This document shows, piece after piece, positions 5,630 to 33,186 of a stretch of DNA of 64,000 nucleotides. Each line of letters opens with the position of its first letter. Position 1 is the stretch's first letter. The DNA is taken from the NCBI RefSeq assembly GCF_020150815.1, contig NZ_CP083723.1, positions 682,001 to 746,000 on the forward strand, written 5' to 3'. The translations under genes and the position numbers were made by a program. This stretch comes from Haloprofundus salilacus. GTDB taxonomy: Archaea > Halobacteriota > Halobacteria > Halobacteriales > Haloferacaceae. The notes under the pieces are model-generated. The model worked only from the letters and a program-made list of their open reading frames with translations. It was not told the origin of the DNA and ran no database searches.

Positions 5630-5920
5630 ATGGAACTGCTGTTCAGAGTGCTGGTGGCCGGATTCGTCGTCGTCGCCCCGTCGGCGCTGTTTCTCGGCCT
5701 CTGGCACGGATTACACCGACTCCGGGACGACCGCCTCGTCGAACGGTTGCTCGACGAGACCGACGACCAGGAGCCGAACGCCGGGGGCGGCTTCGTGCTG
5801 ACGCCGACGGCACGACGCAGTCACAGGTCGGGGTCCGTCGCCTGCGCGGCCTGCGGAACGCCGAACCCGCGCGGGGTTCGCTTCTGTCACGACTGTCTGT
5901 CGAAACTCGACGCGGCGTAG
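5630..5920 (+). CDS. Membrane-anchored zinc-ribbon protein (DUF7577-like)
   Basis: This protein has 96 residues: an N-terminal membrane helix (about 4-26, LLFRVLVAGFVVVAPSALFL), a polar linker, and a C-terminal zinc ribbon with CAAC and CHDC pairs (around residues 70-90). ATG at 5630 follows GAGGGG and begins right at the helix; an in-frame ATG at 5597 would add 11 residues. The ribbon faces the cytoplasm if the helix is N-out. Its function is unknown, and small ribbon-plus-helix proteins are frequent in haloarchaea. Confidence 0.75.
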   Translation: MELLFRVLVAGFVVVAPSALFLGLWHGLHRLRDDRLVERLLDETDDQEPNAGGGFVLTPTARRSHRSGSVACAACGTPNPRGVRFCHDCLSKLDAA

Positions 5921-5961
5921 AAAACGGAGGGTCAGTCGTCGGTCGGTTCGGCGTCTCGGAC

Positions 5962-6615
5962 TCAGTCGCGGCGAAGGGCGATGGCGACTGCCGCGAGGAG
6001 ACCGACGAGCGCCGCGACGACGCCGAAGCCGGGTCCGTCCGTGCTGGTCGTAGAGTCGCTGCTGTCGGCCGTCGTCTCATCGGCACTCGCACCGTCGGAC
6101 GACGTAGTCGTCTCGTCCGTCGACGTGGTCGTCGTGGTCGTCTCTTCGCTCCCACCTTCGACGGTCAGATACGCCGTGCTGCTGACGGGAGCGCCGCCGT
6201 CTCGGTACGGCGCGTTAGCGCTCTCGTTGAACTCCCGATTCCCGTCGTCGGTGTGGACGGTCGCCACCGTCACTTGACTCCGCGAGAGCGCTTCGTCGAG
6301 CGTCACCGTGACGTTCGTCTGTTCGCCCGACCCCAGATAGTCGGAGTGACCGACGAGGCTTCCGCCCTCGTCGTAGATGGCGACGTAGCCGCCGTTCGAG
6401 AGGTTCACCCGCTCGACGACGACGTTCTCTCCGTCTATCGTCTGGTCGTTGTACTCCACCGTGGCGGTTGCGTTCGCGGTGTCGTTTGCGGTTCCGTTCG
6501 TCTGCGCGGCGACCGTTCCCGTCGCTGCGGGACCAATGAGGGCCATCGCGGCGGCGAGCACGGCGAACGCCACTCCGGCGGTGAGTGCGGCGTGTCGGAT
6601 TGTAGATTGCTTCAT
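5962..6615 (-). CDS. Secreted PGF-CTERM surface protein (DUF7282-like)
   Basis: This protein has 217 residues from ATG 6615. It has a Sec signal peptide (about 1-40, ending near TVAAQ), a beta-rich domain with VNLSNGGYVAIYDEGG and DEALSRSQVTVATVHTD (DUF7282 style), a long Thr/Ser/Glu linker likely O-glycosylated, and a PGF-CTERM tail: P-G-F, a hydrophobic helix, then RRD. Archaeosortase A should cut at PGF and attach the protein to an archaeal lipid, leaving it on the cell surface. The longer upstream frame lacks a signal sequence and is not used. Confidence 0.88.
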   Translation of the reverse strand: MKQSTIRHAALTAGVAFAVLAAAMALIGPAATGTVAAQTNGTANDTANATATVEYNDQTIDGENVVVERVNLSNGGYVAIYDEGGSLVGHSDYLGSGEQTNVTVTLDEALSRSQVTVATVHTDDGNREFNESANAPYRDGGAPVSSTAYLTVEGGSEETTTTTTSTDETTTSSDGASADETTADSSDSTTSTDGPGFGVVAALVGLLAAVAIALRRD

Positions 6616-7207
6616 CGTTGTCTCCGGTTCCGGCGGCGTCCGGCGGCCGCCGACGGTTGGGCGTCCGCGGCGCACACCTGGAACTTGGCTTGCATATTTT
6701 CAACCGATGGTAAATTGCTTTGTGATACCGAACGTTTCGAAGTGTCACGCTCCGCGGTAGAACTCACCACGGTGTGGTGAGACAGGGCGTGTATCTGTCG
6801 TGGTCGTTGGTGACGGACATATCAACTATACGAAAAACTCATAAGCGAGTAAATCCTCGGGACTAGTGTGAACTGGAAACACCGACGCAACACACCGACC
6901 GTAGAGCGAAAGAAGAAAGAGACCGACGCCGGCACCCGCTGGTCGTTCATCGCGGCCGCGACTGTCGCCGCGTAGACGGATACGACGTGGTCTCCCACTG
7001 CACCGCACCACACCGCACCGCACTACACCGAATCGTAGACACGACGTCTCGCGACGCCGCAATCGCTGACGTTTCACGGATGGTTTCTCCACGTCGCCGA
7101 CGACGCGTTCTCGCCGGCGGCGGCCGCAACTCCGCCGACGGACCACGGTCCACCGCCCGGAGTGGCCGCCGCTTGACATATATCTGACGAGTACGTCTAC
7201 ACGACGT
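6616..7207. other. Non-coding gap with hairpin and simple repeats
   Basis: No supported gene. Visible structure includes a perfect stem-loop CTCACCAC-GGT-GTGGTGAG (6763-6781), a run of CACCGCAC-like units (about 7000-7025), and the promoter of the next gene. Frames here are short or read opposite to the known genes with arginine-rich products. Confidence 0.6.
7175..7185 (+). promoter_or_regulatory. TATA box of the HTH regulator
   Basis: ACATATATC sits about 30 bases before ATG 7208, the distance expected for a leaderless haloarchaeal transcript. Confidence 0.6.
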
Positions 7208-7858: not shown

Positions 7859-8728
7859 TCAGAGGAACGACTCGATGGCGTCGGCGACTTCCTCGGGCGT
7901 GTCGCCGACGGGGACGCCCGCGTCGTTCAGGGCGTTGATCTTGCTCTCGGCGGTGCCGGTGCCGCTGCCGGAGACGATGGCGCCCGCGTGGCCCATGCGC
8001 TTGCCCGGCGGCGCGGTCCGGCCGGCGATGAAGCCGGCGACGGGGGTGTCCATCTGTTCGTCGATGAACGCGGCGGCCTCCTCCTCGTCCTCGCCGCCGA
8101 TCTCGCCGCACATGACGACCGCGTCGGTCTCGTCGTCCTCCTCAAACAGCGAGAGCGCGTCGACGAAGTCCGTCCCGATGATGGGGTCGCCGCCGATGCC
8201 GATGGCGGTGGTCTGGCCGATGCCGCGGCTGGTGAGGTTGTCGACGACCTGGTAGGTCAGGGTGCCGGAGCGGGAGACGAGACCTACGTTACCGTCGGCG
8301 AAAATGTTACCGGGGAGAATGCCGAGTTTCGCCTCGCCGGGGGTGATGATGCCGGGGCAGTTCGGGCCGATGAGGCGGGTGTCGACCTCCGAGAGGCGCT
8401 TGTTCACCTTCGCCATGTCCTGCGTTGGAATGCCCTCGGTGATGGCTACGGCGAGGTCGAGGTCGGTGTCGAGCGCCTCGAAGATGGCGTCGGCGGCAAA
8501 CGCCGGGGGAACGAAGATGACGGAGGCGTCAGCGTTCTCCTCGCGGACGGCCTCGTCGACCGTGTCGTAGACGGGGATGCCGTCGACTTCCTGGCCTCCC
8601 TTGCCGGGCACCGCGCCCGCGACGACGTTCGTGCCGTACTCCTCCATCTGACCGGTGTGGAACTTCCCTTCCCCACCGGTAATTCCCTGTACCACTACGC
8701 GCGTGTCGTCGTCTACGAGAATGCTCAT
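7859..8728 (-). CDS. sucD: Succinate-CoA ligase (ADP/GDP-forming), alpha subunit
   Basis: This 289-residue subunit of the TCA-cycle enzyme interconverts succinyl-CoA and succinate with ATP or GTP. The CoA-binding fold begins [15 protein letters not shown], and [17 protein letters not shown] follows. The phosphohistidine is in [14 protein letters not shown] (His247). It overlaps sucC by four bases, beta first, the usual haloarchaeal order. It shares the promoter before sucC and has no visible defect. Confidence 0.97.
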
Positions 8729-9870
8729 TGGCTCGCCTCCTGGGCGTTTTCGACCGCACGCTGGACCGCGTCCTCCAGCGTCTCTTCGACCTCCACGAGG
8801 TCGGTGTTCAGAATCTCCATCCCCTCCTCGGCGTTCGTGCCGGCGAGGCGGACGACGACCTTCTTCGGAATCTCGTCGAAGGACTCGAGCGCCTCGTTGA
8901 TACCCTTGGCGACCTCGTCGCCGCGGGTGATGCCGCCGAAGATGTTGAAGACGACCGCGTCGACGTTCTCGTCGGAGAACACCATGTCCAGCGCGTTCGT
9001 CACGCGCTCGGCTTTCGCGCCGCCGCCGATGTCGAGGAAGTTCGCCGGCTTGCCGCCGTAGTAGTCGACGAGGTCGAGCGTCGTCATGACGAGACCGGCG
9101 CCGTTGCCGATGATGCCGACGTTGCCGTCGAGGCGGACGTAGTCGAAGCCGTACTCGCCGGCTTTCTTCTCCAGTTCGTCCTCGTACGTCTCCTCTTCCA
9201 TCTCCGCGAGGTCCGGCTGCCGGAACAGCGCGTCGTCGTCAATGTTCATCACGGCGTCGGCGGCGACCACGTCGCCGTCGCTCGTGATCATCACCGGGTT
9301 GATCTCGATGTCGGAGGCGTCGCGCTCCTCGTAGAGGTCGTACAACGTCGTGAGAATCGAGGAGACGCCTCGGGCGACCGACTGGTCGACGCCTGCGTCG
9401 TAGACGGTCTTCCGCGCTTGGTAGGGGTGCAGGCCGAACGCCGGGTCGATGTGTTCGCGGGCTATGGCGTCGGGGTTCTCCTCGGCGACTTCCTCGATGT
9501 TGACGCCGCCCTCGGTGGAGACCATGGCGACGGGCTTGCCCTCGCCGCGGTCCATCGTGACGCCGACGTACAGTTCGTTCGTGAAGTCGACGCCGGCCTC
9601 GACGAGCACCTGCTCGACGGTGTAGCCTTTCAGGTCCATTCCGAGGACGTCGTCGGCGTACTGCCGAGCCTCCTCCTCGTCGGAGGCGATCTTGATACCG
9701 CCGGCCTTCCCGCGGCCGCCGACGTGTACCTGCGCCTTGATGGCGACGGGGTATCCGATCGACTCGGCAGCCGACACCGCCTCGTCGACGTTCGTCGCGA
9801 GCTGCGACTCCGGGATTGGAATCCCGGCGTCGGCGAAGATATCCTTCGCCTGATACTCGTGAAGCTTCAT
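8725..9870 (-). CDS. sucC: Succinate-CoA ligase, beta subunit
   Basis: This 381-residue ATP-grasp subunit begins with [20 protein letters not shown]. The nucleotide-binding lysine region is [17 protein letters not shown]. The C-terminal flavodoxin-like domain holds [15 protein letters not shown], which contacts succinate and phosphate. It is the first gene of the sucCD pair. A CTTAAAT box about 25 bases upstream (near 9896-9902, minus strand) is a plausible promoter. Confidence 0.97.
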
Positions 9871-26937: not shown

Positions 26938-27951
26938 TCAGAGGACGACGCGTTCGACGTCCGAGACGCCCGCACGACGGACGACGGCGCGGACTGGGTC
27001 TCGGACCCCCGCGAGGTTGTCGGAGTCGCCGTCGAGAACCAGCAGTTTCGCGTCGCGACCCTCCTCGACGAGTCCGCAGTTCAATCCGGCGATCTCCGCC
27101 CCGTTGACCGTCGCCATGCGGAGCACTTCGACGGCGGAGACGTCGGCCAACTTGGCAGCGAACTCCATCTCGCGGAACATCGACGGACTGTTGAGCATCA
27201 CGTTGTCGGTGCCGAGCGCCACCGTCGTCCGGTCGACCAGTTCGCGGATTGGCGGCACGCCGACGTTCGTGACGAGGTTCGAACGCGGGCAGACGACGAT
27301 GGGGACCTCACGGTCGGCGATGCGTTCGAGGTGCAGCGGTTCCGGGTGGACCATGTGGACGACAAAGTCCGGTTCCAGGTCGAGCGCCGGGTTGATGTCG
27401 TCGGGGTCGCGCTCGCCTGCGTGGATGCCGAACAGCTTTCCGGCCTCTCGGGTCGCAGTGCGGACGCTGCCGAACTCTCCGTCGCGCGCGCCGCTGGCGC
27501 CGAACCCGTCCGATATCTCCATCGCGTCGGCCGTCTCGCGGCCGAGGATGACCGGGCGGAGGTCGACGCCGGCGGCGGCGGCGCGAATCGCGTCGACGCC
27601 CTCGCGGCCACCCTCGCGGAACTCGATACAGACAGCGGTGCCGCTCGACTGCATGTACTGCAACGACCGTCGCATCGCGGTGATTTTCTCGGACTGACTC
27701 GCTGCCCGGAGCAGGCGGTGTTTGAGACCGTCCGGCGGCGCGACGAGTTCGTCGAGGCTCAGACCGCGGCCGGCCTCCTTCGCTATCGAGTCGCCGATGT
27801 GGGTGTGCGCGTTGACGAACGCGGGGACGATTATCGACGTGGAGTCCGTCGACGCCTCCTCGACCGTTCGTATCGTGCCGTCTTCGACGACGACCCGCCC
27901 TTCTATCGGCTCGAACTCTTGGCCGATGAGAACGGTTCCCTCAAGTTCCAT
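26938..27951 (-). CDS. Amidohydrolase family protein (cytosine deaminase/SAH deaminase-like)
   Basis: This 337-residue TIM-barrel metallohydrolase has an N-terminal composite-domain segment (GTVLIGQEFEPIEGRVVVEDG), the metal motif VNAHTHIGDS, later FGIHAGERDPDD, VVHMVHPEPLH, and ALGTDNVMLNSPSMFREME (catalytic Asp). The C-terminal strand GRDAKLLVLDGDSDNL closes the composite domain. It deaminates or hydrolyses a ring compound that cannot be specified. ATG 27951 is chosen as the family start; upstream codons are non-family. It lies 63 bases before UspA on the same strand. Confidence 0.9.
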   Translation of the reverse strand: MELEGTVLIGQEFEPIEGRVVVEDGTIRTVEEASTDSTSIIVPAFVNAHTHIGDSIAKEAGRGLSLDELVAPPDGLKHRLLRAASQSEKITAMRRSLQYMQSSGTAVCIEFREGGREGVDAIRAAAAGVDLRPVILGRETADAMEISDGFGASGARDGEFGSVRTATREAGKLFGIHAGERDPDDINPALDLEPDFVVHMVHPEPLHLERIADREVPIVVCPRSNLVTNVGVPPIRELVDRTTVALGTDNVMLNSPSMFREMEFAAKLADVSAVEVLRMATVNGAEIAGLNCGLVEEGRDAKLLVLDGDSDNLAGVRDPVRAVVRRAGVSDVERVVL

Positions 27952-28039
27952 CGTCTGGGGCGAGACGGTGCCACGGCTTGAAACCCTCGTTCCGCTGTCG
28001 CCTCGGTGCAGACGACGCGAGCCGGCGCAGACCGTCGCC

Positions 28040-29263
28040 TCAGTCGAACTGGTCGAGCGTCGTCGGCTGTCCGGCACGAACGTCGTTAACGAGCGCACCA
28101 TCGATGTCGAGACCGAGTTCGTCGGCGGCGGCGCGTCCGACCGAGTCGGCGACGGCTGCGGGAGCGTAGACGCCGAGTCGCCACTGGTTCTGTTGGGCGG
28201 TTCGGAGCGCGTTGACGAGCGGCGACTGTCGGCCGAGTCGCCGGATGTCGCCGTTGACGACGACCCGGGTCGTCGACTCCGTCATCGACGGTTTTTCGGG
28301 CACGTCGACGATGACGTGGTCGGGGTCGACGCCCACCGTCTCGGCGACGCTCGCCTCGACGTCTCGAATCTCGTCGTGGGGCGCTTCCAGAACGGACTCC
28401 GGAACGTCGGAGAGTTCGGCCCAAACGCCGCGTTTGTAGAGGTTTCGGGCGTCGAGTCGGCGGGCGAACTCGGCGGTCTCGTCGATGTTTCGGAGCGCGA
28501 CGAGCAGGTCATGGTCGTCCATCCGGCGGAGTCGCTCGGCAGTGCAGTCGGTGTCGGTGAGCAGATGCTCGGCCGCCCGGCGCAGCATCGCCTTCGAGAT
28601 GCGCGCGACCGGGTGCTGGTAGACGGTCGGGTTCATCAGCGCGCGGGCGACGAGCAGGCTCTCGGCGGTCTGGACGTTCCCCTCCGCGAGCACCAACTCG
28701 CCGTCGACGAACGTCAGTTCGCGGACGAGGCGCTCGTGGTCGATGGTGCCGTAGGGGACGCCGGTGTGGTGGGCGTCGCGGACGAGGTAGTCCATCCGGT
28801 CGACGTCTAGCTCCCCCGAGACGAGTTGGCCGTACATGCCTTCGCCGCGGACGAGTCCGGCGACCCGCGCGGGGTCGAGGTCGTGGTTCCGCAGCACGTC
28901 GCCGACGGCGCCCTCGGCGAGCAGTTCGTCGACGTCGTCGTGGTACTTGCCGGTGTGACGGTAGGTGAGCGACTCGACGTTGTGGCTGAACGGACCGTGA
29001 CCGACGTCGTGCAGTAGCCCGGCGGCGCGGACGCGCTCAGCGTTGGTCCCTTCGACGCCGAGGTGGTCGAGCGCGCGGGAGGCGAGGTGGTAGACGCCGA
29101 GGCTGTGCTCGAAGCGCGTGTGGTTCGCGGAGGGGTAGACGTACTGCACCGTCCCGAGTTGCTTGATGTGCCGGAGGCGCTGAACCTCCGGCGTGTCTAA
29201 CAGCGCCGCGGCGACGCCTCCGACCTCGATGTGGTCGTGGACGCTGTCTTTGATAGTAATCAT
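28040..29263 (-). CDS. HD-domain phosphohydrolase
   Basis: This 407-residue protein begins MITIKDSVHDHIEV, the signature start of dGTPase-like HD proteins. The metal core is RFEHSLGVYHLA and HDVGHGPFSHNVESL, with later D in LDVDRMDYLVRDAHHTG. The C-terminal part (about 280-407) is helical plus a beta domain, GVDPDHVIVDVPEKPS and TRVVVNGDIRRLG. It hydrolyses dNTPs or another nucleotide. A short homologous copy of this C-terminal part lies immediately upstream (29355-29591). Confidence 0.93.
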   Translation of the reverse strand: MITIKDSVHDHIEVGGVAAALLDTPEVQRLRHIKQLGTVQYVYPSANHTRFEHSLGVYHLASRALDHLGVEGTNAERVRAAGLLHDVGHGPFSHNVESLTYRHTGKYHDDVDELLAEGAVGDVLRNHDLDPARVAGLVRGEGMYGQLVSGELDVDRMDYLVRDAHHTGVPYGTIDHERLVRELTFVDGELVLAEGNVQTAESLLVARALMNPTVYQHPVARISKAMLRRAAEHLLTDTDCTAERLRRMDDHDLLVALRNIDETAEFARRLDARNLYKRGVWAELSDVPESVLEAPHDEIRDVEASVAETVGVDPDHVIVDVPEKPSMTESTTRVVVNGDIRRLGRQSPLVNALRTAQQNQWRLGVYAPAAVADSVGRAAADELGLDIDGALVNDVRAGQPTTLDQFD

Positions 29264-29354
29264 TGGTAGGCGCTTCGGCGTCACCGAATAAAAACCGTTG
29301 GAGGCGTGGACTGTCGTTCTCGTCGCTTTTTCTGAGCTGAGGGGCCAGAACGTC

Positions 29355-29591
29355 TCAGTTGTCGACGCCGAGCACGCTTGTGGCCGCATCGCCGAAGTTG
29401 TTGACGAGTTCGGAGGCCTCCTCCAGTCGCCGAACCGTGTCGACGACGACGCACGTCTCGGGCTTTTTGAGCGCCGGTCGGCGCGACACATCGACGATGA
29501 CGGTCTCCGGGTCGACGCCCGCGGCGTCGCTCGCGACATGGAACTCTGGTGCGGCACCGCGCTCGCGCGTCGCCGTGAAGGTCAGATACAA
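29355..29591 (-). CDS. 78-aa protein homologous to the C-terminal domain of the HD protein
   Basis: The segment [20 protein letters not shown], then [20 protein letters not shown], aligns with GVDPDHVIVDVPEKPSMTES and TRVVVNGDIRRLGRQSPLVN in the next gene. The N-terminal 25 residues ([20 protein letters not shown]) do not align. It lies 91 bases upstream of the HD gene on the same strand. It is either a partial tandem duplicate whose HD core was lost or a free accessory domain acting with the HD enzyme. Start codon ATG 29591. Confidence 0.6.
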
Positions 29592-29617: not shown

Positions 29618-30613
29618 ATGATCACTTTTCTCGCCGGGGGGACGGGCACCCCGAAGCTGCTCGACGGTCTCGGGGAGTCGAAGTTCGAGCCGAGGGAGAC
29701 GACCGTCGTTGGCAACACCGGCGACGACGTGGAACTCGGCGGGCTGCTCGTCTGTCCGGACCTCGACACGGTGCTGTTCGACGGCGGCGGCGTCCTCGAC
29801 CGGGAGCGCTGGTGGGGTATCGACGGCGACACCACAGAGACCCACGAGGAACTCCACCGCCTCGCCGACGCCGCCGGACTCGACGGCGGCCCGCGGTACC
29901 TCTCCGACGACGCGCAGACCGCCGGGCGAGAAATCGCGCGCTGGCGACGCTTCTCGGGCGTCGCGGAGTTCATGGAACTCGGCGACAGGGACCGCGCAGT
30001 CCACGTGACGCGGACGAGTCTCCTCGACGAAGGCCGAACGCTCACCGAGGTCACCCGAGTTTTGGCCGACGCATTCGGCCTCGAGGTGACGCTCGTGCCC
30101 ATGTCGAACGACCCCGTCGCCTCCGTCGTCCACACCGACGAGGGGCCGATGCACTTTCAGGAGTACTGGGTCGCTCGTCGCGCCAAACCCTCGGTTCGCG
30201 ACGTGGAGTTCCGCGGGGCCGACGACGCTCGGCCGACCGACGCGGTGCTCGCGGCGCTCGCCGCGCCGGTCGTCGTCGGTCCCTCGAACCCGGTGACGAG
30301 CATCGGGCCGATGCTCGCGGTTCCCGGCGTCCGCGAGGCGCTCGACTCGACGCCGGTCGTCGCCGTCTCGCCGTTCGTCGAGGATCGGGTGTTCTCCGGT
30401 CCCGCGGCGGAACTGATGCGCGGCGTCGGCTACGAAGCCAGCACCGCGGGCGTCACGGAGGCGTACCCCTTCGCCGACGCGTTCGTCCTCGACGACGAGG
30501 ACGGAACCGAACTCGACCGACCAGTCGTGCGCACCGACACGAAACTCGACGGTCCCGACGACGCCGCGCGCGTGATGGGTGCCGTTGAGGACGCGCTGGA
30601 GGCCGTCTCGTGA
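29618..30613 (+). CDS. cofD: 2-phospho-L-lactate transferase
   Basis: This 331-residue enzyme of coenzyme F420 synthesis transfers (2S)-lactyl-2-phosphate from its nucleotide diphosphate donor to the deazaflavin Fo. The start is [18 protein letters not shown], the nucleotide loop. [49 protein letters not shown] and the closing AARVMGAV are family hallmarks. It is first gene of an operon; the next start GTG lies inside its stop. F420 serves as electron carrier of some oxidoreductases. Confidence 0.96.
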
Positions 30614-31425
30614 GCGCTCCCGGTCAGGACGCCGAGCTACCCTCGCCGCGCTTCGCCGCCGCGAGCCTCAGCGGCGAGTCCGACTCGGAGTGGGCGAGAG
30701 CGGCCGCCCCACACGTCGACGCGGCGTTTCTCGGCGGTATCGCGCTGGACGAACCCTCGCGAGAGGCGGCGCGCGAACTCGTCGCCCGCGGACGCTCGGA
30801 GTTCCTCCCCGAGGACCCGCTCTCGTTCGTCGAAGCCGAGTTGCAAGCATTGGCCGACACGCCGATTCGCGTCGGGGTCAACGTCCGCAGTACGACGGTC
30901 TCACCGATTCGGGCGGCGGCGACGGTCTGCGCCGACCGGGGGGCAATTCTCGAGGTGAACGCGCACTGTCGACAGGACGAACTCCGCGCGGTGGGATGCG
31001 GCGAGGCGCTGTTGGCCGACACTGACCTCCTCTGCCGGTACGTCGCCGCCGCCGCCGAGACCGGTGCGACAGTGAGCGTGAAGGTCAGGACCGAAGTCCC
31101 GGAGGTCGACCTCCCGGAGACGGCGCGACGCGTCGCCGACGCGGGCGCGACGGTGCTCCACGTCGACGCGATGGACTCCGAACCCGTCGTCGGCGACGTG
31201 GCCTCGGCGGCCGGCGACGACCTCTTTCTCGTCGCCAACAACGGCGTCCGCGACGCCGCCACGGTTCGCGAGTACCTCGACTACGGGGCCGACGCGGTGA
31301 GCGTCGGCCGTCCGAGCGACGACCCCGAGGTGCTCCATCGCGTCCGTACCGCCGTCGACGAGTGGTTCGGGGCGAACGAGTCGGGCCGACCAGAGGAGTC
31401 AGAGGAGTCGGAGGTGTCGGCGTGA
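30610..31425 (+). CDS. Dus-like (dihydrouridine synthase-type) TIM-barrel protein
   Basis: This 271-residue TIM-barrel protein has the Dus-like C-terminal half [50 protein letters not shown], and the substrate-cysteine region [22 protein letters not shown]. Cys in NAHCRQDE and the final phosphate loop are compatible with FMN binding. Archaeal genomes annotate such proteins as tRNA-dihydrouridine synthase, but they form a separate MJ0144-type group, so the function is open. It overlaps cofD and the next gene by GTGA junctions. Confidence 0.82.
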
Positions 31426-32258
31426 CGCCCGCCGAGAACGCGGAACTCGCGCTCCTGCTGGAGGTCGCGAGCACGCCGAAACCGGGGAACGTCGACCGAA
31501 AGCGCGACCTAGACGACCTACGGTTCGAGCAGTTTCTCGCCGGGGCCGTCGGGTCGGCGAAAGGGCTTCGGATGGCTGCCGACGGCGCGCCCGTGGGCGA
31601 GGCGTTCGAGCGCGCGGTCGAGGGAATGAGCCGGCAGGAGGGTGGCAACACGCAGTTCGGCTGTCTGCTACTGCTCGTGCCGCTAGTGAACGCGGCCGCC
31701 GAGAGCGACGAGACGCTCACCCCGGAGGACGCGACGAGCGTCGTCGAAGCGACTACCGTCGCCGACGCCGTCGACTTCTATCGCGCCTTCGAGCACGTCG
31801 ACGTCGCCGTCGACGACCCGCCGGCGGACGCGCCCGAACTAGACGTTCGCCGCGGGAGCGACGCGGTTCCGGCGCTCGAACGCCGCCAGATGACGCTGTA
31901 CGACGTGATGGAGATGAGCACCGAGCGCGACGGTAACGCTCGCGAGTGGACCGGCGGATTCCGCCGGACGTTCGCCGCCGCCGATGCGATCTGCGACGAC
32001 GACGGTCCCGTCCCGGACCGCGCGGCGCGGGCGTTTCTCGACCTGCTCGCCGAGGAACCGGACACGCTCGTCGCGACCCAGCACGGCGAGGAAGTCGCCG
32101 CCGCGGTTTCGGAGTGGGCCGACGACGCCCGCGGCGACGAAGCGGCGACGGACCAACTCGCCGAAGCGCTCGTCGCCGAAGGCGTCAACCCGGGGACGAC
32201 GGCGGATATCACCGCCGCGGCGCTGTTCGTCGCGCTCGAACGGGGGGTACGCATGTGA
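31422..32258 (+). CDS. CitG/MdcB-like triphosphoribosyl-dephospho-CoA synthase family protein
   Basis: This 278-residue helical protein begins ENAELALLLEVASTPKPGNVDRKRDL, where STPKPGNVDR is the CitG signature. GGNTQFGCLLLLVPL and GVNPGTTADITAAALFVAL complete the family pattern. CitG makes the prosthetic group of citrate or malonate lyase, yet neither lyase nor its acyl carrier is here, and archaeal homologues sit by cofD. The true substrate may be another nucleotide cofactor. GTG 31422 is chosen as it overlaps the previous TGA. Confidence 0.85.
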   Translation: MTPAENAELALLLEVASTPKPGNVDRKRDLDDLRFEQFLAGAVGSAKGLRMAADGAPVGEAFERAVEGMSRQEGGNTQFGCLLLLVPLVNAAAESDETLTPEDATSVVEATTVADAVDFYRAFEHVDVAVDDPPADAPELDVRRGSDAVPALERRQMTLYDVMEMSTERDGNAREWTGGFRRTFAAADAICDDDGPVPDRAARAFLDLLAEEPDTLVATQHGEEVAAAVSEWADDARGDEAATDQLAEALVAEGVNPGTTADITAAALFVALERGVRM

Positions 32259-32902
32259 GCGGGGGCGGTGGCGGCGGAATGCGGCCGAGCGCAGAGTGGC
32301 CCGCCGAACTCCGTGGCATCACCGAGTCCGTCGTGACGACACTCGGGCCGAACGGCCTGTGGAACGTCGCGGCGCTCGGGATTCGAGCGCCCGAGGGCGC
32401 CGGGGCCGACGCCGACGGGGACGCGCCCGCGACGGCGACGACGTGGGGCAACACCCGGACGCGCCGGAACTTCCACCGGCGCGGCGAGGGCGTGGTCCAG
32501 TTCGTCACCGATTCGCGGACGTTCGTCGACGCCGCTGTGACGGTACGCGAGGAGTCCGAGCCGGTGCTCGACGACGCCGACGCGTGGGTGCGCGTCGAAG
32601 TCGAGCGCGTCGACGCCGAGGAGCGGGACGGGACGCGAATCGAGCGGTGGGAGCTTCGACCCGTGGAGTCGGAGGTGGTCCGGACGGACGTCCGAACGAT
32701 CAACCGCGGATTCTACGCCGTCGTCGACGCGTCGGTCGCGGCGTCGCGGTTGGACGTGCCGGCCTACGACACCGATGCGCTACTGGCGCGACTCGAATAC
32801 TTCGAGGAGACCGTCGAGAAGTGCGGCGGCGACGCCGAACGGGAGGCGTTCGAGCGACTGAGCGCCGAGACGGGGTGGCGCGAACGGCGCAGCGGGCGCT
32901 AA
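32255..32902 (+). CDS. DUF447 family flavin-binding-like protein
   Basis: This protein of 215 residues starts at GTG 32255 (overlapping TGA). After a Gly-rich tail, the split-barrel DUF447 fold starts at ITESVVTTLGPNGLWNVAALGI, with WGNTRTRRNFHRRGEGVVQFVTD and RTINRGFYAVVDASVAASRLD. DUF447 proteins resemble flavin-reductase split barrels, and structures show FMN. In archaea they neighbour F420 and methanopterin genes, as here. It is probably a reductase or sensor; the partner is unknown. It is the last of the GTGA-linked genes. Confidence 0.85.
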   Translation: MSGGGGGGMRPSAEWPAELRGITESVVTTLGPNGLWNVAALGIRAPEGAGADADGDAPATATTWGNTRTRRNFHRRGEGVVQFVTDSRTFVDAAVTVREESEPVLDDADAWVRVEVERVDAEERDGTRIERWELRPVESEVVRTDVRTINRGFYAVVDASVAASRLDVPAYDTDALLARLEYFEETVEKCGGDAEREAFERLSAETGWRERRSGR

Positions 32903-32991: not shown

Positions 32992-33186
32992 ATGGCTATC
33001 AAACCCAAGTACGTGAAGCAGATGGGTAGTCTGCTGCTGGAGAAGTATCCGCAGGCGTTCAACACCGACTTCGAGACGAACAAAGAGAACGTCGAGAAAC
33101 TGACCAACGTCGAGTCGAAAGGCGTCCGCAACCGCATCGCGGGGTACGTCACGCGCAAGAAGCAGTCGCAGGCGGCCGCCGCGTAA
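32992..33186 (+). CDS. rps17e: Ribosomal protein S17e
   Basis: This 64-residue archaeal/eukaryotic 30S protein begins MAIKPKYVKQMGSLLLEKYPQAF, continues with VESKGVRNRIAGYVTRKK, and ends in an Ala-rich tail. This is the conserved length for archaea. It is preceded by GTTTTAGTG (about 32962-32970), roughly 27 bases upstream, so it probably has its own leaderless promoter downstream of the cofD operon. Confidence 0.97.
   Translation: MAIKPKYVKQMGSLLLEKYPQAFNTDFETNKENVEKLTNVESKGVRNRIAGYVTRKKQSQAAAA

Follow-up and report, generated by a model that had tools for sequence, protein, structure and literature searches.

Why does cofD, the gene for the lactyl- or enolpyruvyl-2-diphospho-5'-guanosine (LPPG/EPPG):7,8-didemethyl-8-hydroxy-5-deazariboflavin (FO) transferase of F420 biosynthesis, stand in one overlapping string with genes for a dihydrouridine synthase (Dus)-like protein, a CitG-superfamily protein and a DUF447 protein, and do the four serve one pathway? 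We addressed this question in Haloprofundus salilacus, using a stretch of 64,000 nucleotides (hereafter the window; contig NZ_CP083723.1 of assembly GCF_020150815.1, positions 682,001 to 746,000). An earlier note on this DNA had proposed, from a constant association with F420 genes, an undescribed cofactor or F420-linked pathway involving all four; it closed the block at 32258, which is the end of the CitG gene, and the string itself spans 29618 (cofD) to 32902 (DUF447). Gene order across haloarchaea points to a different answer. The string is, in our judgement, fairly likely to consist of two cofactor modules, cofD-Dus and CitG-DUF447, combined in one overlapping transcription unit, and we infer that the two modules belong to separate pathways.

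Two gene pairs in one string

The four families were compared in the same 116 haloarchaeal genomes, with adjacency computed from match positions; where a match came in pieces, as for CitG in G008, G087 and G097, these were either merged or represented by one piece. cofD was present in all 116 genomes, the Dus-like gene in 114, and CitG and DUF447 in 113 each. The order cofD-Dus-CitG-DUF447, whose conservation the earlier note had suggested checking, is kept in 89 of the 116. CitG and DUF447 are adjacent in all 113 genomes, and cofD and Dus in 113 of 114, the exception being G021, where cofD lies on another contig. Dus and CitG adjoin in 90 of 111 genomes; every break of the string (21/111) falls between these two genes, and all 21 breaks occur within a single family, f4. 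Two genomes without a Dus-like gene (G002 and G068) keep cofD-CitG-DUF447, and in three genomes without CitG and DUF447 (G001, G007 and G018) cofD and Dus are still side by side. The association with F420 genes therefore holds for Dus and fails for CitG-DUF447, which has left the cofD neighbourhood in 21 of 111 genomes and whose presence or absence goes with that of another gene, mptG, as described below.

The three genomes that lack CitG and DUF447 were inspected at the corresponding place. In the window, DUF447 is directly followed by a small gene whose 64-aa product we take, from its letters, to be ribosomal protein S17e, and in 33 of 57 haloarchaeal loci an S17e-like gene is located no more than 700 nt past DUF447. 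In G001 and G007 the S17e-like gene comes directly after Dus, indicating that the CitG-DUF447 pair was excised cleanly. No remnant of the pair was found in the interval between Dus and the S17e-like gene of G018; this interval (5678-6887 of locus L005) holds a single open frame, some 378 aa long, at the place of the pair, which presumably resembles deoxyhypusine synthase. A second set, the best 80 of 529 haloarchaeal loci and all close to the query, gave the same arrangement around cofD, which immediately precedes the Dus-like gene in 79 of the 80 (one of them, L128, was counted as adjacent although its computed gap of -1722 is an artefact of a long open frame). CitG-DUF447 is missing in 20 of these loci and distant or inverted in 5.

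These patterns also bear on the alternative that one molecule is processed by the Dus-like protein, CitG and DUF447 in successive steps, as with methanogenesis marker 9, and that cofD is a mere neighbour. Such a pathway would be in keeping with the order marker 9-like barrel, CitG, DUF447 in 9 of 9 fetched methanogen-type loci (L057-L064, L070), of which L062 shows all four genes in the haloarchaeal order, but the Dus-like gene stays by cofD both in the three genomes that lost CitG, DUF447 and MptG and in the 21 f4 genomes whose CitG-DUF447 moved, and G002 and G068 keep CitG-DUF447 without Dus. We consider a single three-enzyme pathway unlikely.

The junctions of the string are as the earlier note had described them: GTGA occurs at all three, each time formed by the stop of the upstream gene and the GTG start of the downstream gene (Table 1). 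A GGAGG lies 8-12 nt before the Dus and CitG starts and a GGGGG before the DUF447 start. The 4-nt overlap is the commonest junction arrangement in haloarchaeal loci and exceeds chance, with 33 of 79 measured junctions for cofD-Dus, 36 of 49 for Dus-CitG and 45 of 51 for CitG-DUF447. The coupled translation that had been concluded from these overlaps is plausible. Overlaps of the GTGA type are frequent in compact operons and are no proof of a common pathway.

Table 1. Genes, junctions and neighbouring genes of the cofD locus, in window positions
Feature	Position	Strand	Evidence or remark
cofD, LPPG/EPPG:FO transferase of F420 biosynthesis	29618..30613	+	TIGR01819 372.3 bits (cut-off 257.45), equivalog; PF01933
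Dus-like TIM-barrel protein of 'archaeal Dus' type, consisting of the barrel alone, with Cys120 as the catalytic Cys	30610..31425	+	PF01207 37.4 bits (cut-off 20.4)
CitG-superfamily triphosphoribosyltransferase-like protein, archaeal/H4MPT-island type	31422..32258	+	PF01874 219.1 bits (cut-off 27)
DUF447 protein	32255..32902	+	PF04289 72.0 bits and PF20766 63.8 bits, both over cut-off
GTGA overlap, cofD stop / Dus start	30610..30613	+	GGAGG at 30598-30602
GTGA overlap, Dus stop / CitG start	31422..31425	+	GGAGG at 31410-31414
GTGA overlap, CitG stop / DUF447 start	32255..32258	+	GGGGG at 32243-32247
Amidohydrolase near the cluster	26938-27954	-	NF005552 'chlorohydrolase' 297.7 bits, barely over cut-off 294
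HD-domain protein, divergent from cofD	28169-29434	-	HD_assoc_2 and HD
Small gene directly after DUF447	32992-33186	+	64-aa product

The HD-domain gene on the other side of cofD has homologs adjoining cofD in loci L002 and L006 and in the non-haloarchaeal loci L052, L054 and L065; this neighbourhood is an old association too.

CitG-DUF447 and the methanopterin genes

We then asked which cofactor the CitG-DUF447 pair serves. The synthase of ribofuranosylaminobenzene 5'-phosphate (RFAP), MptG, is the first committed enzyme of methanopterin biosynthesis (PMC6787355; papers are cited here and below for individual passages). Its gene is unlinked in the source genome, lying at G000:C1:338321-339289, about 374 kb from the cluster at 713431. 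MptG was found by TIGR00144, a subfamily-level model that gives the activity as a candidate one, in 113 of the 116 haloarchaea, in 111 of them over the cut-off. MptG, CitG and DUF447 are all missing from exactly the same three genomes, G001 and G007 (genus g15) and G018 (genus g17). Because G001 and G007 belong to one genus and G018 to another, whose other sampled members keep MptG, these absences represent two joint losses. By our own arithmetic, chance agreement of two events among about 47 lineages has a probability of about 1 in 1000; odds calculated per genome would overstate the case. Among 14 control genomes, DUF447 and MptG both occur only in Methanocaldococcus jannaschii, Methanosarcina acetivorans, Haloferax volcanii and Sulfolobus acidocaldarius, and S. 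acidocaldarius gave no cofD and no TIGR00736 (archaeal Dus-type) match. The H. volcanii locus tags are HVO_2479 for cofD (PMC8305020) and HVO_2628 for mptG. The mptG neighbourhoods of 20 haloarchaea contained no informative constant partner (KaiC-like ATPase, ILVD).

The context of the pair outside haloarchaea gives the same direction. CitG is present in 18 of 20 non-haloarchaeal loci fetched, and DUF447 adjoins it in 17 of the 18, the exception being L056. In L054 the pair stands beside a dihydromethanopterin reductase gene (TIGR02700, 313 bits, cut-off 251), with a dihydropteroate synthase (DHPS)-like gene (TIGR00284, 348 bits, cut-off 257) farther along. A protein search of plasmids located CitG and DUF447, separated by 3 kb, in an unannotated stretch (L178) of a megaplasmid from Cupriavidus oxalaticus, which has the order MptG, Mpt_N dehydrogenase, ATP-grasp, MCH, MptN-like ligase, CitG, AfpA-like flavoprotein, DUF6513/DUF4346, DUF447, fhcB, fhcA, fhcC, where the last three, farther downstream, encode formylmethanofuran dehydrogenase B, A and C. 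The MptG of this island scores 141.9 bits with TIGR00144 (cut-off 113.5), equal to that of the source genome (141.2 bits). By position, its MptN-like, CitG, AfpA-like, DHPS-like and DUF447 genes fit orf19-orf20-afpA-orf21-orf22 of the methylotroph tetrahydromethanopterin (H4MPT) island (PMC3615186), a mapping of our own, and L178 has MptG in the island as well; haloarchaea differ in having, as far as tested, only MptG, CitG and DUF447, with no TIGR00284, and in the tie of the pair to cofD-Dus. The cofactor genes to which CitG-DUF447 is linked are thus those of methanopterin, so placing all four in a single F420-linked pathway is not the preferred interpretation, whereas the undescribed cofactor step suggested by the earlier note remains a fair guess.

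Two further arrangements were seen. In L052, cofD is separated from CitG-DUF447 by genes for a DUF763 protein (440 bits) and for a phosphodiesterase of the YfcE type (7929-9694, plus strand), and L053 and L055 have similar genes. Many megaplasmids of Azospirillum, Rhizobium, Paraburkholderia and Phyllobacterium carry CitG relatives (24.8-33.1% identity) with no DUF447 match in the plasmid search, and these relatives form another CitG branch.

The CitG protein matches PF01874 over its full length (profile 1-284), has the solved chain 3h9p as its nearest relative of known structure (E 1e-30) and carries conserved KPGNVDR and NPGTTAD motifs. This superfamily is common to CitG and MdcB of citrate lyase and malonate decarboxylase, and membership in it is what a true triphosphoribosyl-dephospho-CoA synthase for an ACP (acyl carrier protein)-type lyase would have. 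Such a role is very improbable, given that the curated CitG/MdcB equivalog models TIGR03125, TIGR03132 and NF002315 give only 17.4, 18.6 and 21.7 bits against cut-offs of 272.3, 282.35 and 280, that the neighbours are different, with CitG located in H4MPT clusters, and that the gene is lost together with MptG; the earlier note was right to separate this protein from the lyase type. The DUF447 protein belongs to its family by both domain models, and its solved relatives (2iml, 2nr4, 2ptf and 3b5m) presumably have the FMN (flavin mononucleotide) split-barrel fold. In the open-licence PMC papers searched, on DUF447, CitG, their COG numbers, marker 9 and methanopterin genes, we found none that gives these genes a function.

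Several observations weigh against extending this link to methanopterin itself in haloarchaea, or against the link as a whole. The pterin-coupling enzyme TIGR00284 is over the cut-off in 0 of 116 haloarchaea, and its 23 weak matches sit in frames of 806-1153 aa that we read as FolP-FolC. All 116 haloarchaea have Mch, among them the three that lack MptG. Published passages name folate as the one-carbon (C1) carrier of haloarchaea (PMC4500146, PMC8305020) and hold that the haloarchaeal MptG homolog probably makes no RFAP (PMC8305020). The joint loss, finally, may partly mirror the small size of the genomes concerned (2.1-2.4 Mb), although none of the genes is missing from G021 (1.9 Mb) or G092 (2.2 Mb), which are small as well. 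A full methanopterin pathway in haloarchaea is unsupported, since TIGR00284 is missing and Mch does not track MptG. For these reasons, and in view of the published statements on folate, what we propose for haloarchaea is a conserved RFAP-type module and not methanopterin: in organisms presumed to use folate only, the CitG-DUF447 pair most likely makes the ribosylated tail of a cofactor derived from RFAP. The same absence of TIGR00284, the retention of Mch without MptG, CitG and DUF447, and folate as the known C1 carrier (PMC4500146) would also suit a re-use of the three proteins for a non-pterin metabolite, with only the families in common with methanopterin chemistry. We hold this re-use to be rather unlikely, as the three-gene set is kept together just as in methanogens, in S. 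acidocaldarius and in the bacterial H4MPT island.

The Dus-like protein and the F420 branch

The Dus-like protein is a Dus barrel that falls outside the curated Dus families, scoring 19.1 bits with TIGR00737 (DusB; cut-off 293.3) and 128.7 bits with TIGR00736 (cut-off 218.7). The catalytic Dus residues, N117-A-H-C-R-Q122 with the catalytic Cys120, K158, R160, H184 and D186, are invariant in 48 haloarchaeal sequences, and they include NxHC and HxD, the motifs described for archaeal-type Dus (PMC3674756). The AlphaFold model (pLDDT 90.8, pTM 0.87) is ordered to about residue 258. Its best fold match is Thermus thermophilus Dus 3b0p (Z 23.9, 2.5 Å over 217 residues), of which only residues 2-244 of 308 are aligned, and a near-equal match is pig dihydropyrimidine dehydrogenase (DPD; 1gth, Z 23.3), an enzyme of free pyrimidines, followed by dihydroorotate dehydrogenase (DHODH) near 21. 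In the model and in the alignment with 3b0p, the C-terminal helical tRNA-binding domain of Dus is absent. The protein is probably no tRNA enzyme, and the earlier note had already set it apart from standard tRNA enzymes: both equivalog models are missed, the tRNA-binding domain is lacking, and H. volcanii tRNA is reported to contain no dihydrouridine (D) in the passage cited (PMC2584109). The invariant Dus residues and the Dus enzymes at the top of the fold matches could still mean that it makes dihydrouridine in some RNA, either rRNA or an unexamined tRNA, but against the missing domain, the DusB score, the absence of D from H. volcanii tRNA and the cofD adjacency in 113 of 114 genomes, we judge this improbable.

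In the phylum sample, all 127 genomes with a TIGR00736 match have cofD. On an unsaturated carbonyl, Dus enzymes place a hydride at the beta carbon and a Cys proton at the alpha carbon. If an FMN ene-reductase used phosphoenolpyruvate (PEP), EPPG or dehydro-F420-0, it would close either of two gaps reported for archaeal F420, and Dus chemistry fits such a reaction. One gap is the dehydro-F420-0 reductase 'CofX', which archaea have been argued to need and which was not found when a nitroreductase fold was sought near cofE (Bashiri et al., PMC6450877). The other is the lactate kinase that would supply 2-phospholactate, listed in an inventory of 2011 as unknown together with about seven methanopterin enzymes (PMC3087415). 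Our best guess is that the Dus-like protein is the FMN ene-reductase of the F420 branch; that it specifically reduces the enolpyruvyl unit of PEP, EPPG or dehydro-F420-0 to the lactyl unit of CofD is a tentative and somewhat doubtful proposal. It would resemble the C-terminal reductase of mycobacterial FbiB and the archaeal CofX in being an FMN enzyme that saturates the C3 unit of F420, provided that the PEP route is in use (PMC6450877), and differs in its fold, FbiB being a nitroreductase and the Dus-like protein, whose activity is predicted, a TIM (triosephosphate isomerase) barrel. The FbiB reductase model TIGR03553 was over the cut-off in 0 of 196 genomes; any match at E 1e-3 was obtained in 10 of 33 haloarchaea and none in the source genome.

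Other findings argue against this assignment. As many as 62 of the 189 cofD-bearing genomes of the phylum sample have no TIGR00736 match. The haloarchaea G002 and G068 keep cofD without the Dus-like protein, and G002 has no TIGR03553 match either, so it has neither reductase candidate. Archaeal CofC/D pairs have been reported to be specific for 2-phospholactate (PMC8764529), in which case a dehydro-F420 reductase is not needed. The methanogen relative of the Dus-like protein sits with CitG-DUF447 and not with cofD, and the barrel in L064 has lost the NxHC Cys. A universal CofX is ruled out by the 62 genomes and the Cys loss, and we keep the proposal for haloarchaea only. DUF447 was also considered as the dehydro-F420 reductase and was ruled out, as S. 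acidocaldarius has DUF447 without cofD and G001, G007 and G018 have cofD without DUF447.

Among its relatives, the haloarchaeal protein is closer to the methanosarcinal marker 9 type of about 380 aa (143-166 bits) than to the short f13 form (74-119 bits). The haloarchaeal and marker 9 proteins share a homologous barrel and the order Dus-CitG-DUF447; the haloarchaeal protein differs in its location behind cofD and in having no Cys-rich C-terminal TIGR03277 domain, which gave no match in the window protein and whose columns are absent in 13 haloarchaeal sequences. The domain was confirmed in L057, L062 and L064. In L064 (7359-8312, minus strand; family f25) the marker 9 protein keeps TIGR03277 (172.6 bits) with a degenerate Dus barrel, as if barrel and domain had separate jobs.

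A possible route for both modules

From the gene order, its split, the joint loss with MptG, the placement in methanopterin clusters and the barrel-only fold with Dus residues, we infer the following reactions. In the first module, cofD and the Dus-like protein would serve F420, the latter as a small-molecule FMN ene-reductase by which the methylene carbon would receive a hydride and the alpha carbon the proton of Cys120, in the manner of Dus at the C5=C6 bond of uracil. In the second, CitG and DUF447 would act with the unlinked MptG on a methanopterin-type tail. For the prosthetic group of citrate lyase, CitG takes the 5-triphosphoribosyl group of ATP and attaches it in alpha linkage; in the next step CitX makes a phosphodiester and pyrophosphate is set free. 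Methanopterin carries an alpha-ribofuranosyl group on the ribitol 5-OH, and the 5-phosphate of this group is the phosphodiester of hydroxyglutarate. By analogy, a CitG step on an aryl-ribitol followed by a CitX-like step would yield the ribosyl-phosphodiester part of methanopterin. MptG would couple p-aminobenzoate (pABA) and phosphoribosyl pyrophosphate (PRPP) to RFAP, DUF447, a candidate for the riboside-opening reduction, would open the C-riboside reductively to the ribitol, CitG would furnish the 5-OH of the ribitol with an alpha-linked 5-triphosphoribosyl group taken from ATP, and a CitX-like step would then form the phosphodiester to hydroxyglutarate. That both halves are true together, with haloarchaea making a second, RFAP-derived cofactor whose tail depends on MptG, DUF447 and a CitG-type alpha-ribosyltransferase, and with the Dus-like protein as the missing archaeal F420 ene-reductase (PEP to 2-phospholactate, EPPG to LPPG, or dehydro-F420-0 to F420-0), is a conjunction that we put forward as unlikely in full.

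The gene families, the methylotroph island and the gaps in both cofactor pathways are already known; new within the literature searched are the two-module split, the joint loss of CitG, DUF447 and MptG in haloarchaea, and the suggestion that the F420 branch uses a Dus-like ene-reductase. The locus offers CitG and DUF447 as candidates for two of the missing methanopterin enzymes and the Dus-like protein as one for the lactyl step of F420, and it questions the absence of methanopterin-specific enzymes from haloarchaea stated in a passage of PMC8305020. Two pathway gaps can thereby be addressed in a host with easy genetics. Should the RFAP-type module of haloarchaea prove real, most of these organisms would contain a cofactor not yet seen.

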